Of a stretch of 20,058 bases of DNA, positions 12,887 through 17,903 are shown piece by piece. Positions within the stretch are counted from its first letter, which is position 1. Every line of letters begins with the position of its first letter. Source of the DNA: a virus; the IMG/VR virus record IMGVR_UViG_3300030104_004886, positions 1-20,058 of that record. One strand, 5' to 3'. The notes under the pieces were generated by a model. It searched no databases. It worked only from the letters and a program-made list of their open reading frames with translations, and was not told where the DNA came from. Position numbers and translations under genes: made by a program.

Positions 12887-15028
12887 TTAATTCAGTGGAT
12901 TTTCCGGTGGCCCAGTCACCGTAGGTTGAGGTTGCGCTGACTGTTGCATCTGGGTCCGTTGCAACAGAGATTGTTGTCTCACCTCCTCCCGTTCCCGTTC
13001 CATCAATCCACGGATCGTGGCCTGATCGACGCTAGTTGAATATTTGGTTTCAAGTTCCTTGATCTTCAACTGAAGTTCTGCTTCAAACTGATCTCTGATG
13101 CGGTCATCCTCACGGATCATTTTTTCACGGTCCAGGTTCAGACGGGCTTCAGATTCTGCGATGTCTGCGACAATCTTTTGATTTTGAATCTGAGCATAGA
13201 TTTCTTCAGCCGACGGTTTCGGTTCTGGAGGTGGAGGTGGCTGAAATTGTGCCGGATCGCTGAAGAATTGACTGGTGTCAGCATAGCCAGCATTTTCCAG
13301 GGTCTTAACTAAGGTCTGGTAATACTGTTGCTGGTTGACCAACGGGTTGACTGGTCCCTGTTGCTGGAGGATCTGTTCCTGTTTCTGGACGATGCTTTGA
13401 AGGAATCCCTGACGTTCTGCATCAGATGCTCCTCCCAGTGGTATGTCAACGGTGACATCCATCATGGCATCGAAGTGCCGTGGATCGATGGGGATGTATT
13501 GGTTCCGAAGCCGGACCAATTTTTCTTTGTCCTGGTATTTTTTCACCAACTGGAAAACACCCTTGTAGAGTTTCTTCAGTCCGTTCTCAGCAAAGATCCT
13601 TGCCAGGAGTTCCAGGTGCGCCTGAGAAGCCTTAACAGCCGTGTCGATTGCGACTCTGGTTGTTGACATCAGGCTTTCTACATCGGTGCCAGCCGATGCT
13701 TTTGTGATGCCTGTCCTTTTCTCAAGTGTGGAATCCAATAGCTGAATGATTGGGAGGGCTTGCCCACCTACGAATGGCTGTTGAAGCTGTTGGACGGACC
13801 CCATGTTTCGGACACGGATAATACTCCCGATTTCCTGGTTCAGAACATCGTCAATATTACAGGCATTTTCCTGCACGATTGTTCTGGGATTTAAGCTGAA
13901 ACTGAGGGAATCCAATACGTTCCGCATCACATTTGTTTTGATGCGCTGGATATCTTTCACGATGTCAGTGACTCCAAAACCCCGTCCTCCCCAGTCATGG
14001 GGTTCAGGGTCTGGGGTCAGGGTGACAAACGGAATGTAGTCACATGGCTCATCACTGAAAACTTCATAGGCTGTTCCCAGACATAATACTTTTCTGAGTT
14101 CCGCAATGCCGTCCTGGTCCTTGTCGATTTTGATGTATGCTTCAATCGTCAGGACTTTTTTGTTGGAGTCATCCAGTTTGTCAGATCCACGGTTGTAGGA
14201 ATCATCAAATCTGGCTAAATATTCGGAGTTTGTTTCAAAGGTTGACTGGTTCCCTGCAACCTCCAAAACGGCTTCGTAGTCGTATCCCATTGCCACCAAA
14301 TCACTGACGCTGACCATGCTCCGATGAGCGACAATGGTAGCGTCCTCAAGCGACCTTGCATCCCTGTTGATCAGAAACTCTTCAGGGGGCAAGCATTCAA
14401 TAGCGACTTTGCCTTCCTCTTTTCGGTACTTGATCCTGGCGTTGACTTCCGGTGGCTGTCCTTCGGCTTGTGTCTCTTCAATCTCAACGGCTTCAACACC
14501 GTCCTGTCCTGCAAGGATCGCAAGCTGTTGCTGGTCCAGCCCCGTGTATCGGCTGGTGCAGACTTCCGTGTGTTGTTTCCAGTAGAATTTCAGGATTCCG
14601 GTGCGTCGGACCAGTGCGTCCTTGAATGCCGAATAGAACGTGTTAAAGGAATCAGTCTCTTCGGTGACAATGTAATTGATATAATCGGAGCATTGTTCAG
14701 CCATAAGGCGGTCTTCGGCTGAACGGGGGGCGAAATTAATGACTCTCTTGGAGCCAAAAAACATTCGCATGAGGGAGGGCAGAATCTGTTGGACCGTGTC
14801 CCTCACATCATGAGAGACAACACGGCTCCTACCAACGTCAACATCACCTTCATAGGAACCCCGATAAAGATCGGTTGCTTCGGCACGGTCTTCACCCAGT
14901 TCAAGGTCTATGTAATCGACTGCACTTTTGATTGCAGACCCTACATACCCCTGATATTCGACTTCGTCCATTGGCTCTGGGCCGTCGAACGAATCTTCGA
15001 TCTCAGCGTCTTCAGAATATTCTGCCAT
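12887..15028 (-). CDS. Portal protein
   Basis: A 713-residue protein close in length to P22-type portals (about 725). Features: acidic N-terminus, LYRGSYEGDVDVGRSRVVSHDVRDTVQQILPSLMRMFFGS (split reading, residues about 54-93), which matches portals of environmental podovirus-like phages; the central ECLPPEEFLINRDARSLEDA-type segment; and an ITKASAGTD region with helices that line the channel. A PPPPP run (597-601) precedes a long charged coiled coil (about 605-690), as in portals with a barrel extension. The portal forms the dodecameric ring through which TerL pumps DNA. It is the first gene of the minus-strand block to the left of the plus-strand cassette. There is no clear Shine-Dalgarno before the ATG. 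Confidence 0.9.
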   Translation of the reverse strand: MAEYSEDAEIEDSFDGPEPMDEVEYQGYVGSAIKSAVDYIDLELGEDRAEATDLYRGSYEGDVDVGRSRVVSHDVRDTVQQILPSLMRMFFGSKRVINFAPRSAEDRLMAEQCSDYINYIVTEETDSFNTFYSAFKDALVRRTGILKFYWKQHTEVCTSRYTGLDQQQLAILAGQDGVEAVEIEETQAEGQPPEVNARIKYRKEEGKVAIECLPPEEFLINRDARSLEDATIVAHRSMVSVSDLVAMGYDYEAVLEVAGNQSTFETNSEYLARFDDSYNRGSDKLDDSNKKVLTIEAYIKIDKDQDGIAELRKVLCLGTAYEVFSDEPCDYIPFVTLTPDPEPHDWGGRGFGVTDIVKDIQRIKTNVMRNVLDSLSFSLNPRTIVQENACNIDDVLNQEIGSIIRVRNMGSVQQLQQPFVGGQALPIIQLLDSTLEKRTGITKASAGTDVESLMSTTRVAIDTAVKASQAHLELLARIFAENGLKKLYKGVFQLVKKYQDKEKLVRLRNQYIPIDPRHFDAMMDVTVDIPLGGASDAERQGFLQSIVQKQEQILQQQGPVNPLVNQQQYYQTLVKTLENAGYADTSQFFSDPAQFQPPPPPEPKPSAEEIYAQIQNQKIVADIAESEARLNLDREKMIREDDRIRDQFEAELQLKIKELETKYSTSVDQATIRGLMEREREEVRQQSLLQRTQMQQSAQPQPTVTGPPENPLN

Positions 15029-15109: not shown

Positions 15110-15138
15110 TTGACAAGCAGATCCAATGGATCTATTAT
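15110..15138 (+). promoter_or_regulatory. Sigma70-type promoter of the plus-strand cassette
   Basis: TTGACA at 15110-15115, a 17-base spacer, and TATTAT at 15133-15138: a consensus -35, optimal spacing and a near-consensus -10. The expected start of transcription is near 15145, giving a leader of about 36 bases before the ATG at 15181. The spacer holds an inverted repeat, AGATCC-AAT-GGATCT (15119-15133), that touches the -10, an ideal place for a repressor. It is preceded by an A-rich stretch (15073-15106) that could act as an UP-like element. Confidence 0.75.
15119..15133. promoter_or_regulatory. Operator-like inverted repeat inside the promoter
   Basis: AGATCC AAT GGATCT is a perfect six-base inverted repeat around three bases, lying in the spacer and first base of the -10 of the promoter at 15110-15138. 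The nonamer AATGGATCT also occurs at 15059-15067, and its reverse complement AGATCCATT at 15463-15471, just before the second cassette gene. A likely binder is the helix-turn-helix protein encoded at 15976-16251; that link is inference. Confidence 0.5.
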
Positions 15139-15166
15139 GTACTCATGGTTGATCAATTAATTAATT

Positions 15167-15183
15167 TCAGAAAGGCAAATATG
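15167..15183 (+). promoter_or_regulatory. Repeated translation leader, copy 1
   Basis: TCAGAAAGGCAAATATG, ending in the ATG of the first cassette gene. AAAGG is the Shine-Dalgarno, five bases plus before the ATG. It decides the start at 15181 over an in-frame upstream ATG at 15097, which lies upstream of the promoter. Copies 2 and 3 (15478-15494, 15684-15700) differ only at the base before TATG. Confidence 0.8.
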
Positions 15184-15405
15184 GAAACAATCCAATACCA
15201 AAATCATCCAAGGCAAAAAGAATCATTTATTGAAAATGAAAGGGTCAGGCTTTCTAGGTTCCAAGACCCAAGGGACGGGAAATGGTATGCATTTGTAGAA
15301 ACTAAGTCTGATGAGTTCCATCTATTCAGTGGACCCTGGAAACAAAAATATAAAGCTACAGAGCAAATCCGAATTTGGCATGGGGATGATGACTTAATCT
15401 TCTAA
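15181..15405 (+). CDS. 74-residue cassette protein 1, function unknown
   Basis: A small charged protein beginning METIQYQNHPRQKESF, with a probable beta-rich core (RVRLSRFQDPRDGKWYAFVE, then FHLFSGPWKQKY) and an acidic end (HGDDDLIF). The frame is open upstream to 15097, but the ATG at 15181 has the repeated Shine-Dalgarno leader and lies downstream of the promoter at 15110-15138, so the shorter form is called. The first 60 bases are about 28 percent G+C by hand count, well below the neighbouring terL and portal genes. I recognise no family. As first gene behind a strong promoter it is probably an early or constitutively expressed phage factor. Confidence 0.75.
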   Translation: METIQYQNHPRQKESFIENERVRLSRFQDPRDGKWYAFVETKSDEFHLFSGPWKQKYKATEQIRIWHGDDDLIF

Positions 15406-15411
15406 GCCGAA

Positions 15412-15450
15412 ACACCCTTCGGGGTGTCGTTCTGGGGATGATCTCCCAGA
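15412..15450 (+). other. Two adjacent RNA hairpins between cassette genes 1 and 2
   Basis: ACACCC-TTCG-GGGTGT (15412-15427) is a perfect six-base stem closed by C(UUCG)G, an unusually stable tetraloop. It is followed by TCTGGG...CCCAGA (15431-15450), a second six-base stem with an eight-base loop. Neither is followed by a T run, so they do not look like a classical intrinsic terminator. They may stabilise or process the mRNA, attenuate transcription or reduce downstream expression. Confidence 0.55.
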
Positions 15451-15477
15451 CCTGATGATGGCAGATCCATTGAATTT

Positions 15478-15494
15478 TCAGAAAGGCAAGTATG
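15478..15494 (+). promoter_or_regulatory. Repeated translation leader, copy 2
   Basis: TCAGAAAGGCAAGTATG, ending in the ATG of the second cassette gene. Identity with copy 1 extends upstream in part: AGATCCATT and an AATTTT/AATTAATTT stretch lie before each copy, so a longer leader seems to have been duplicated. Confidence 0.75.
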
Positions 15495-15677
15495 AGAATC
15501 AAAGACATGGACACGCAAAGTTTAAAAAAACAGGAATCTGATATTTCTGAGGTACTGCACTTTGCTTGTGATAGAGGTGACAAAATCGATGCATACTTTG
15601 ATCGTCGCTTAAACTTAATTCGGTCTGAATTAAAAAAAAGGAGAAGCGACGCAGAAAAACAAATATCCAATCTCTAA
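15492..15677 (+). CDS. 61-residue helical cassette protein 2, function unknown
   Basis: Begins MRIKDMDTQSLKKQESDISEV; highly charged and predicted to be almost all helical, with a coiled-coil-like second half (RRLNLIRSELKKRRSDAEKQ) rich in Arg and Lys. One cysteine (C26). The start has the conserved leader. The protein could bind nucleic acid or a host factor because of its charge, but no family is recognised. It shares AT-richness with genes 1 and 3 of the cassette (about 37 percent G+C over 15481-15540 by hand count). Confidence 0.7.
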   Translation: MRIKDMDTQSLKKQESDISEVLHFACDRGDKIDAYFDRRLNLIRSELKKRRSDAEKQISNL

Positions 15678-15683
15678 AAACAC

Positions 15684-15700
15684 TCAGAAAGGCAATTATG
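15684..15700 (+). promoter_or_regulatory. Repeated translation leader, copy 3
   Basis: TCAGAAAGGCAATTATG, ending in the ATG of the third cassette gene and placed seven bases after the stop of gene 2. The sequence upstream of the shared 17 bases differs from copies 1 and 2. Confidence 0.75.
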
Positions 15701-15979
15701 AAAAAGAAAAATTTTAATGATTCAAATGATTCCAAAAGAATCGAACTTGCCAGAAAGTTAAGGGACAGAACAGTATCAACCAATTATGAAGAAGGAATTG
15801 TTGAAAAGTATTTCAAGCCCTATGGCAAAAAAGCTGAAGCCGATTTGGAATTTGTTGAATTCAGAAAATTAGTTGATAGAAACAAAGGTCGTAAAACAGG
15901 CTGGTTGAACAGTTCAGGACATACCATCAATGGCCTGATGGAAGCAATGTTTGGATGGGCTGAAGTAGGAGAAAAATGA
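15698..15979 (+). CDS. 93-residue cassette protein 3, function unknown
   Basis: Starts MKKKNFNDSNDSKRIELARK; basic, mostly helical, with YEEGIVEKYFKPYGKKAEAD in the middle and a Gly-containing C-terminal part (GRKTGWLNSSGHTINGLMEAMFGW). No membrane span. The start carries leader copy 3; the TGA overlaps the ATG of the regulator gene as ATGA, so the two are translationally coupled and probably act together. I recognise no family. Such a pair (unknown small protein plus HTH protein) could be an antirepressor/repressor or toxin/antitoxin arrangement, but nothing in the sequence decides this. Confidence 0.75.
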   Translation: MKKKNFNDSNDSKRIELARKLRDRTVSTNYEEGIVEKYFKPYGKKAEADLEFVEFRKLVDRNKGRKTGWLNSSGHTINGLMEAMFGWAEVGEK

Positions 15980-16251
15980 CTGACCTAAAACACATACGGA
16001 AAGCACTGGGCATCAGCCGGACTGAGGTCTGCAAAGCCACTGGGGTTTCCTACAATACATGGAAGCACTGGGATGACGGGGATCGAAGGACTCCAGGATA
16101 CGCCTGGACGCTGTTGTATCTCCATCATCTGGTGAAGACTGACCGTGTCAATCTGTTCCCGTATCCCTTTAATGGAGATCAGTCCCTGTCATGGCAATCT
16201 AAACAATCCCTCCAACGGATCGTCGCAACGGCTGATTCCAGGGCCGACTAG
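15976..16251 (+). CDS. Helix-turn-helix DNA-binding regulator
   Basis: A 91-residue protein whose first half has an XRE/lambda-repressor-like helix-turn-helix: LKHIRKALGISRTEVCKATG (residues 4-23), then VSYNTWKHWDDGDRRTPGYA as recognition helix and following turn, then a helix WTLLYLHHLVK. The C-terminal 40 residues are not recognised; the last 17 or so are encoded antisense to the 3' end of terL (overlap 16199-16251). It is coupled to cassette gene 3 (ATGA), with AGGAG before the ATG. Its G+C content (about 53 percent over 16021-16080) is near that of the late genes, unlike the AT-rich genes before it. It probably regulates the cassette promoter and perhaps the facing late genes. Confidence 0.8.
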   Translation: MTDLKHIRKALGISRTEVCKATGVSYNTWKHWDDGDRRTPGYAWTLLYLHHLVKTDRVNLFPYPFNGDQSLSWQSKQSLQRIVATADSRAD

Positions 16252-17623
16252 CCCCTGCCAACACACCGGACACGCTACCAAAGGTCAGAACAAAAGCGTC
16301 AGCGAAGTCCGGTGACCCCCTTCCTCCCAACCGTTTCCGCATTTCATCCTTCGTTTCCAGTTTGATCCTTCCGGTGGAGTCAAATGAATACCGTGGGGAG
16401 CATAATTCATACATCAGACGGTTATCACGGGGTATTTTACAGTCCCGTGCTTCAAACCATTCCTTGGCCTGATGCCACAATTCACACCTCAGATTTTTAT
16501 ACATCTGGTTCAGGGACGCTGATTCCCCCGTATTGATGCCGACAATCGGCATTCCTAACTCTGAGCCACGGTCACACACTGATGCGCCCAAACCGACCAC
16601 ATCTGCACAAATAGCATCAGGACCATCACCCTCCTGGAGTGCCTTTTCATATTCCTGGTAGACTGCGCCCGTCAACGCCATGGTGTCCTGATTCGACCAG
16701 AATTTGATGGGTTCCAGGACCGTGTTTCCCTGACGCTTGCAAAGTGCTGATTTATCAGTCCCAAAACGTGCGATGTCCAGCCCCCAGATGGTTCGACCTC
16801 CAGTCGGTTCGACATCACGGGTCACTGCACTTTCAACGATTTCATTTGAGATCAGGGTGTCCTCAGAAGTCTCAGGAAACTCTCCAAGGCAACGGATACG
16901 GAAAGTCTGGCTGTCCCTACCGTAACGGTCCTCCAGTTCTGTCACAAAGTCCTTGGAGACCCGTGGAGAGTCCTCTGAAGAAACAGTGCGGAGCCACCAC
17001 TTGTCGGCAAGCCGTGTAAAAGCATCATAGAAGTATCCCTCCGGTCTGGTCGGGTTCCCCAGGAGGATCAGAGTCGCATTTTCAGAGGATAAAGATCCAC
17101 CAGCCGATTCAAACGTGGCACTGGAAATTATGCTACTTTCGTCAGCAATCAGGAGCGTCCTTGGGCTATGAATACCCTGGAGCGATTCCGGAGATTCCGG
17201 CCTGGAAGTACGACACGAAATGAAGCTCCCAGACGGGTCAGCCTTCAAAACAATCCGGTCACTGGAAACCTCAAACAGATTCTTCAGGGCCGGAGGAAGA
17301 TTGTTCAACTGGGACTTCAGTTCCGCAAAAAGCGCATCAAACAACTGGGCCGATGTCGGAGCCGTCAGGACCGTCTTCTGGGGGTATTGACAGATGATGT
17401 TATGGAGTGCAATCCAGGAAGCCGTAGTCGATTTTCCGACTCCATGACCTGACTTGACTGCACAAAGCCTTCGACCAGAATTAGGGTTCCCACACTTCGG
17501 AAGGCTGGCTTCCATAAGTTCCCTTTGCCATGGGTCCGGTTCACACTCCAGAATGTCCCTGACAAAACTGACGGGGTCATCTGAATACTTGTCAATGAAC
17601 TCAGTGAAAAGCGTGGTTGCCAT
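16199..17623 (-). CDS. terL: Terminase large subunit (ATPase and nuclease)
   Basis: A 474-residue packaging motor protein. The ATPase half shows Walker A SGHGVGKST (58-66), Walker B LLIADE (157-162, D161 and E162) and the coupling motif LGNP (188-191). The RNase H-like nuclease half shows GLDIARFG (D283), ICADVVGLG (D341) and SPDFADAF (D439/D442). It cuts concatemeric DNA and pumps it through the portal. The frame is open to 17764, but the upstream part would lie in the signal-peptide gene and is not family-like; the ATG at 17623 begins MATTLFTEFIDKYSDDP, normal for the family, with AGGACGGG just upstream. It overlaps the previous gene by 23 bases and is separated from the portal by a plus-strand cassette. 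Confidence 0.95.
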   Translation of the reverse strand: MATTLFTEFIDKYSDDPVSFVRDILECEPDPWQRELMEASLPKCGNPNSGRRLCAVKSGHGVGKSTTASWIALHNIICQYPQKTVLTAPTSAQLFDALFAELKSQLNNLPPALKNLFEVSSDRIVLKADPSGSFISCRTSRPESPESLQGIHSPRTLLIADESSIISSATFESAGGSLSSENATLILLGNPTRPEGYFYDAFTRLADKWWLRTVSSEDSPRVSKDFVTELEDRYGRDSQTFRIRCLGEFPETSEDTLISNEIVESAVTRDVEPTGGRTIWGLDIARFGTDKSALCKRQGNTVLEPIKFWSNQDTMALTGAVYQEYEKALQEGDGPDAICADVVGLGASVCDRGSELGMPIVGINTGESASLNQMYKNLRCELWHQAKEWFEARDCKIPRDNRLMYELCSPRYSFDSTGRIKLETKDEMRKRLGGRGSPDFADAFVLTFGSVSGVLAGASRPWNQPLRRSVGGIV

Positions 17624-17903
17624 AGATTCCCGTCCTGCATAAGTGGGTGGCCTGGATGAACCATTGGGTGTTGTTATCCCTGGAGTAAAGATCCTCAAAA
17701 GAAAACCGTTCCCGTGTGAGGTCCAAAATACAGTCGCAGACCTCAACCTCAAAAAACGGATCAACCCCAGGATTTCGCTTCATGGTCGTTTCAAAACAGA
17801 CTGACCACATGGTCCTAATGTGGTTGGTGTTGTATGTCCCCGTAAAGTTATCAGCAAACAATGATGATGCCGTAAAAAAGAGGACCAGGATTAATTTTTT
17901 CAT
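17601..17903 (-). CDS. Secreted four-cysteine protein, function unknown
   Basis: A 100-residue protein with a clear signal peptide: MKKLILVLFFTASSLFA, cleavage expected after A17. The mature 83 residues have four cysteines (C36, C56, C58, C89), including a CDC motif, and should be oxidised in the periplasm; no lipobox is present. The start at 17903 is supported by an ATGA overlap with the upstream gene; a longer frame to 17951 would hide the signal peptide. I do not know a function. A phage-encoded exported protein between terS and terL is odd for a packaging block; it might modify the host envelope, as in superinfection exclusion, or be carried by lysis. Confidence 0.8.
   Translation of the reverse strand: MKKLILVLFFTASSLFADNFTGTYNTNHIRTMWSVCFETTMKRNPGVDPFFEVEVCDCILDLTRERFSFEDLYSRDNNTQWFIQATHLCRTGIYGNHAFH

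Follow-up and report, generated by a model that had tools for sequence, protein, structure and literature searches.

A putative self-repressed, ribozyme-bearing accessory operon lying antisense at the terL-portal junction of a viral contig

Genes of the cassette and its flanks

The window, by which we mean the whole stretch of 20,058 nucleotides that was analysed, comes from an uncultured phage, probably a marine one. On this 20-kb contig every long ORF is on the minus strand apart from four located between terL and the portal gene. The portal gene (12887–15028, minus strand) was recognized by PF23899 SU10_portal (E 1.3e-185) and PHROG 1216, and terL (16199–17764, minus strand) by PHROG 2 (E 1e-43) and PF03237. 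Upstream, the terL frame stays open as far as a TTG at 17764, and since relatives align only from about residue 42–52, its true start is probably near 17620. Just upstream of terL, a gene at 17604–17903 on the minus strand encodes a small protein whose start (MKKLILVLFFTASSLFA) resembles a signal peptide; counterparts of about 38–39% identity are present in the related loci L105 and L118, and no Pfam family was matched.

The four plus-strand genes encode proteins of 74 aa (ORF1, 15181–15405), 61 aa (ORF2, 15492–15677), 93 aa (ORF3, 15698–15979) and 91 aa (ORF4, 15976–16251), and are spaced by 86, 20, and −4 bp. The start of ORF4 lies inside the ORF3 stop codon (ATGA, a 4-bp overlap), while its 3′ end overlaps terL tail to tail by 53 bp. 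ORF1, ORF2, and ORF3 have in common a start box, TCAGAAAGGCAANTATG, which precedes ORF1 at 15167–15180 (plus strand; TCAGAAAGGCAAAT) and recurs at 15478–15491 and 15684–15697. This box is also present in the cassettes of L084, L094, L104, L106, L115, and L118. The G+C content is 39, 36, and 35% for ORF1, ORF2, and ORF3, compared with 52% for ORF4, 52% for terL, and 49% for portal. An earlier note, made from the sequence alone, had described four plus-strand genes on an otherwise minus-strand contig, a low G+C content of the first three, a terminal HTH regulator overlapping terL, and a consensus-like promoter in front; ORF calls, base composition, HTH matches, and the promoter sequence agree with each of these points. 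What it had overlooked is the operator-like palindrome and the ribozyme described below.

We consider ORF1 and ORF2 to be real genes because both have relatives. Those of ORF1, in L112–L115 and L127–L129, show 61–82% amino-acid identity, and comparison with the L112 protein gave a dN of 0.10 against a dS of 0.69; the ORF2 relative, 73% identical, is found in L127, where it lies downstream of the HTH gene. For ORF3, which is otherwise an open frame, the gene support is limited to the start box and the 4-bp overlap with ORF4; no relatives were found, and a search of named phages returned weak matches only. ORF1 had no relative in named phages and none in bacterial genome scans, and its predicted fold gave no usable match (pLDDT 64; Foldseek E above 0.03 against BFVD and about 1 against the PDB).

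The junction in related phages and exchange of parts

Scans with TerL and portal yielded 19 and 62 viral loci, respectively, whereas cassettes were found by scans for the start box, ORF1, and cargo family F0 (first encountered at L115:3029-3238); the sampling is biased in that cassette-bearing relatives were found via cassette parts. In nine relatives (L004, L005, L007, L010, L022, L037, L041, L064, and L082) terL and portal are separated by a gap of 95–212 bp. The near-identical relatives L021 and L071 (portal identity 96–99%) stop short of the junction. In others, the junction holds genes on the terL strand, encoding an HNH endonuclease (L002), a PAPS-reductase-like protein (L003), a radical-SAM-like protein (L008), a 2OG oxygenase (L044), or proteins of 570–925 aa, and in L028 (3612-4664) it holds an ART-PolyVal gene (ADP-ribosyltransferase domain of polyvalent proteins, E 3.4e-11). 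Large sense-strand proteins (350–925 aa) were seen between terL and portal in L028 and L023-L066. Antisense cassettes, most of them ending in an HTH gene, occupy the same junction in about 15 related contigs; plus-strand junction cassettes were recorded in L084, L094, L104, L105, L106, L112, L113, L115, L118, L120, L121, L122, L125, L127, L128, and L129. Several of these are fragmentary: in L084, L104, L121, and L122 the HTH gene is wholly or partly past the contig end, and in L128 no HTH gene adjoins ORF1. In L114/L126 ORF1 and the HTH gene lie at another place. When viral contigs were scanned for the start box, most matches other than those in L084, L094, L104, L105, and L106 were single ones unrelated to cassettes. 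The junction DNA had no match in named phages, and the TerL search of bacterial genomes gave one distant MAG. Judged by its contents in relatives, the terL-portal junction is a hotspot for accessory genes.

In a quick TerL tree, strongly supported branches force at least three changes of cassette state; all six rows of the window's clade have a cassette, and all nine of the sister clade are without one. The earlier note had proposed an insertion between terL and portal, and the comparison of junctions speaks in its favour, the junction being empty (95–212 bp) in nine relatives and occupied by other genes in the rest, with no set of the same four genes common to all. Its view of the insertion as a moron or control cassette holds in part. 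Morons are accessory genes that lie among late genes but are expressed independently, and the cassette resembles them in its own promoter, its position among late genes, its lower G+C content, and its presence or absence between relatives. It differs in being multi-gene, in having its own predicted repressor and operator as well as a ribozyme, and in recurring at one site with exchange of parts; a regulator with its own operator and a hammerhead that would divide the mRNA go beyond the moron reading. Nor is it a one-off: the cassette recurs in at least three TerL lineages with changing cargo, and a single-site insertion limited to the window was rejected because the cassette type recurs.

Grouping by similarity gave some 40 cargo families across 17 cassettes, made up of shuffled small orphan proteins. 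None of 35 cargo proteins scanned matched PHROGs, NCBIfam, or PADLOC, two of the 35 had weak Pfam matches that made no sense, and no Acr homologue was detected among the cargo in Pfam, NCBIfam, or PHROGs. The start box, ORF1, and the ribozyme form a block (15167–15474, plus strand) that shares 311 nt at 87% DNA identity with L112/L113, whereas the TerL proteins of these phages are about 43% and the HTH proteins 29% identical to those of the window. This indicates that the ORF1–ribozyme block has moved between distant phages. From the contrast between 87% for the block and 29% for the HTH protein, and from the position of the ORF2 relative behind the HTH gene in L127, cargo and regulator therefore appear to travel separately. 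The junction serves as an address, at which the promoter-palindrome, the ribozyme, and the HTH gene single out dozens of small proteins as candidates for a role in anti-defence or host takeover.

Promoter, regulator, and hammerhead ribozyme

The promoter claimed by the earlier note, TTGACA-17-TATTAT, is located at 15110–15138 (plus strand) and matches the consensus in 11 of 12 positions. Among the five sites that a sigma-70 promoter scan of 4.5 kb returned it scored best, but the count equalled that of shuffled sequences (5 vs. 5.1) and the scan was rejected as proof of a promoter. We therefore put the weight on the comparison with relatives: every related cassette for which the start could be seen has a similar promoter in the corresponding position. 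The −35/−10 spacer is filled by a palindrome, AGATCCA-A-TGGATCT (15119–15133, plus strand), with 7-bp arms and a 1-bp centre (p about 0.006 by shuffling), which we propose to be the operator of an ORF4 repressor.

ORF4 gave profile matches to PHROG 8898 (E 6e-9) and HTH_31 (E 2e-4, below the Pfam cutoff). Its top match among PDB sequences was Aca10 (7XI5; phmmer E 1.3e-5 over 44 residues), and a profile search gave Aca10 an E of 3.6e-5. Foldseek with the predicted ORF4 structure, the HTH part of which has a pLDDT of 82–89, likewise ranked Aca10 first, with a TM of 0.71 on the target and 1.6 Å over 49 columns, but with an E of 0.036. The two proteins differ in length (91 aa vs. 65 aa for Aca10) and are similar over about 44–49 residues, with R37 of ORF4 aligned to R44 of Aca10. 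Aca10 represses its own acr operon by binding to a palindrome that has a 1-bp centre and overlaps the −35 and −10 elements, the DNA-binding residue R44 being critical (PMC9410881). For bacterial Aca families, autorepression was seen in every one tested, with an inverted repeat in the core promoter (PMC9410906). On the sequence and fold match, we predict ORF4 to be an HTH repressor of the Aca10 type; the two operators are alike in geometry and have a CA-W-TG core in common, but differ in sequence. HTH proteins with 44–57% identity to ORF4 are encoded in L094, L105, L106, L114, L115, and L118, and searches of named phages gave weak matches only. No terminator was identified after ORF4.

The spacer palindrome differs between cassettes. 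TTACCCA-W-TGGGTAA takes this position in L084, L094, L104–L106, L115, and L118, whose HTH proteins form one type (in L115 the cassette promoter carries TTACCCAWTGGGTAA), and an imperfect copy of it is present in L126. ACA-NN-TGT palindromes were found in L112, L113, and L120–L122, whose HTH is another type, and a third kind of palindrome in the L127 promoter. Those of L112, L120, L122, and L126 are individually not significant; taken together, the palindromes are consistent with operator type following HTH type across cassettes. The place and geometry of the palindrome and this correspondence provide strong, though indirect, support for cognate autorepression by the HTH protein via the spacer palindrome, and regulators swapped together with their operators would make a natural data set for HTH–DNA specificity. 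A second operator at 15463–15477, where a repeat lies, was rejected as a first explanation because AGATCCATT is the invariant ribozyme tail in phages with quite different operators.

The sole Rfam match of the window is a predicted type II hammerhead ribozyme at 15405–15470 (plus strand), between ORF1 and ORF2 (RF02276, Hammerhead_II; 47.8 bits vs. a cutoff of 37, E 3.2e-7, full length 1–66 of 66). It begins on the final base of the ORF1 stop codon. The core comprises CUGAUGA, GAAA, and a GUC cut triplet with its C at 15428, in keeping with the NUH rule, and the predicted cut falls between C15428 and G15429. Stems I and III are closed, stem II is open, and a loop I–tail pseudoknot (GAUCU/AGAUC) can form. 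The minimum free energy of the region is ordinary (z −0.74); the predicted fold retains the stem I and stem III hairpins, and plain folding cannot show the active form. Type II hammerheads of prophages and metagenomes (Perreault et al., 2011, PMC3088659; RF02276) have the same core, open stem II, and closed stems I and III, the loop I–tail pseudoknot described for this type, and a place between small phage genes. The copies described here differ in belonging to a predicted self-repressed antisense operon, in which they mostly follow the first gene, in occupying one junction in many phages, and in having, for the most part, an extra U beside stem II.

The ORF1–ORF2 gap region is conserved among cassettes. 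RF02276 scored above its cutoff in 12 places across nine other cassette loci, and L125 has one further, truncated match. The usual place is after the first gene, with two copies further on in L112/L113 and L122. The L084 and L094 records (37–38 kb) each have one hammerhead, located in the cassette, and none elsewhere; none was found in 17 cassette-less relatives (145 kb), and the cassettes of L106 and L126–L129 also lack it. CCCC-UUCG-GGGG hairpins were seen directly before gene starts in cassettes without a hammerhead (L126:5752-5751, L127:2249-2291, and L129:4960-5270).

Proposed mechanism and other readings

We propose, with a probability of roughly 0.6, that the cassette is a self-repressed, ribozyme-processed accessory operon with an acr-aca-like layout, placed antisense at the terL-portal junction, whose cargo most likely serves counter-defence. 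Host RNA polymerase would read it from its own promoter once the DNA enters the cell, yielding a single mRNA with ORF1, the type II hammerhead, ORF2, ORF3, and the HTH gene ORF4. To judge from its structure, the ribozyme would cut this mRNA after the ORF1 stop codon, leaving an ORF1 mRNA with a 3′ stem III hairpin and an ORF2-3-4 mRNA with a 5′ stem I hairpin, which would allow different amounts of the two parts to be made. As the HTH protein accumulates it would bind the −35/−10 palindrome and shut the operon off, as suggested by the place and geometry of this palindrome and its co-variation with HTH type. The products of ORF1–3 would act early on the host, and related phages would swap cargo, ribozyme-linked units, and regulator–operator pairs.

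The known acr-aca operons are defined by genes of <200 aa on one strand with gaps of <250 bp (PMC9765179). The cassette has genes of 61–93 aa on one strand with gaps of 86, 20, and −4 bp, an HTH gene downstream (ORF4), and, at 15119–15133, an inverted repeat inside the core promoter. In the acrIC7-acrIC6-aca10 operon of Pseudomonas citronellolis (PMC9410881), small genes are likewise followed by an HTH regulator and a palindrome with a 1-bp centre overlaps the core promoter; ORF4 is closest to Aca10 in both sequence and fold, R37 corresponding to R44. The cassette departs from this operon in its operator sequence, in the hammerhead in its mRNA, in its antisense location at the terL-portal junction, and in yielding no Acr homologue in Pfam, NCBIfam, or PHROGs, for which last reason we describe it not as an acr-aca operon but as one that would work like it. 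The anti-defence reading of the cargo draws on this layout, on cargo turnover, on the ART-PolyVal gene at the junction of L028, and on hammerheads flanking the anti-restriction gene ardA in A. tumefaciens (PMC3088659). Neither a hammerhead between small phage genes nor an acr operon repressed by an HTH protein is new by itself. As a weak negative result, a search of open-access papers (preprints and most subscription papers excluded) found no report that joins a hammerhead to an acr-type operon or describes an antisense cassette between terL and portal.

A real but lesser possibility is that the cassette serves early host takeover in general and has no anti-defence function, its self-repression limiting toxicity, with ribozyme and repressor working as proposed above. 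High-turnover orphan proteins, an early-type promoter, and the lack of an Acr homologue in the three databases would suit it, and the earlier note's idea of control or timing was of this kind. We prefer the counter-defence reading, as the regulator and operator most closely resemble the acr-aca arrangement and a relative has an ART-PolyVal gene at the same location.

The hammerhead could also have lost its cutting activity and persist as a decayed remnant or an anchor for recombination. In most copies, including that of the window, an extra U stands between CUGANGA and stem II, which may slow cleavage, and the exchanged block ends in the ribozyme. However, two copies (L112a and L122a) are free of the extra U, the CUGANGA/GAAA core is intact in 10 of 10 sequences compared, and loop I can pair with the tail over 4–5 bp, as GAUCU/AGAUC or GAUC/GAUC. 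The sequence of stem I differs in nearly every phage, yet 56 of 56 cells are paired, against a mean of 36 for random strand pairing, and six of its seven pairs show compensatory two-sided changes. Such covariation, with an invariant core and pseudoknot over divergent phages, requires selection on structure and makes decay unlikely. An elaboration of the counter-defence reading, in which the hammerhead is a regulated switch and either cleavage or the HTH protein bound to the AGAUCC tail sets downstream output, takes up the resemblance of this tail in the window to the DNA operator half-site AGATCCA, but we consider it improbable.

It is still more doubtful that antisense transcription itself is the point, with convergent reading into terL damping the late packaging genes until the repressor acts: ORF4 or its counterpart overlaps terL tail to tail in the window, L115, and L118, but the proteins are under purifying selection and the overlap is missing where other genes follow the HTH gene (L112, L120, and L125). 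Least probable of all is a toxin-antitoxin or superinfection-exclusion module with a toxin-like ORF3 and, as in HigBA, ORF4 acting as the HTH antitoxin or repressor. Although ORF3 and ORF4 overlap at ATGA and ORF4 also weakly matches the HigA, MqsA, and HipB antitoxins, ORF3 has no match to a toxin family and does not stay beside the HTH gene in relatives, where the HTH neighbour changes.

Two minor observations concern the surroundings of the junction. In the related phages L041 (8693-9292) and L082 (5482-6138), two group I introns lie close together downstream of portal. In L013 (671-4365), portal and terL are divergent, unlike in all relatives, which points to a rearrangement or a chimeric contig.
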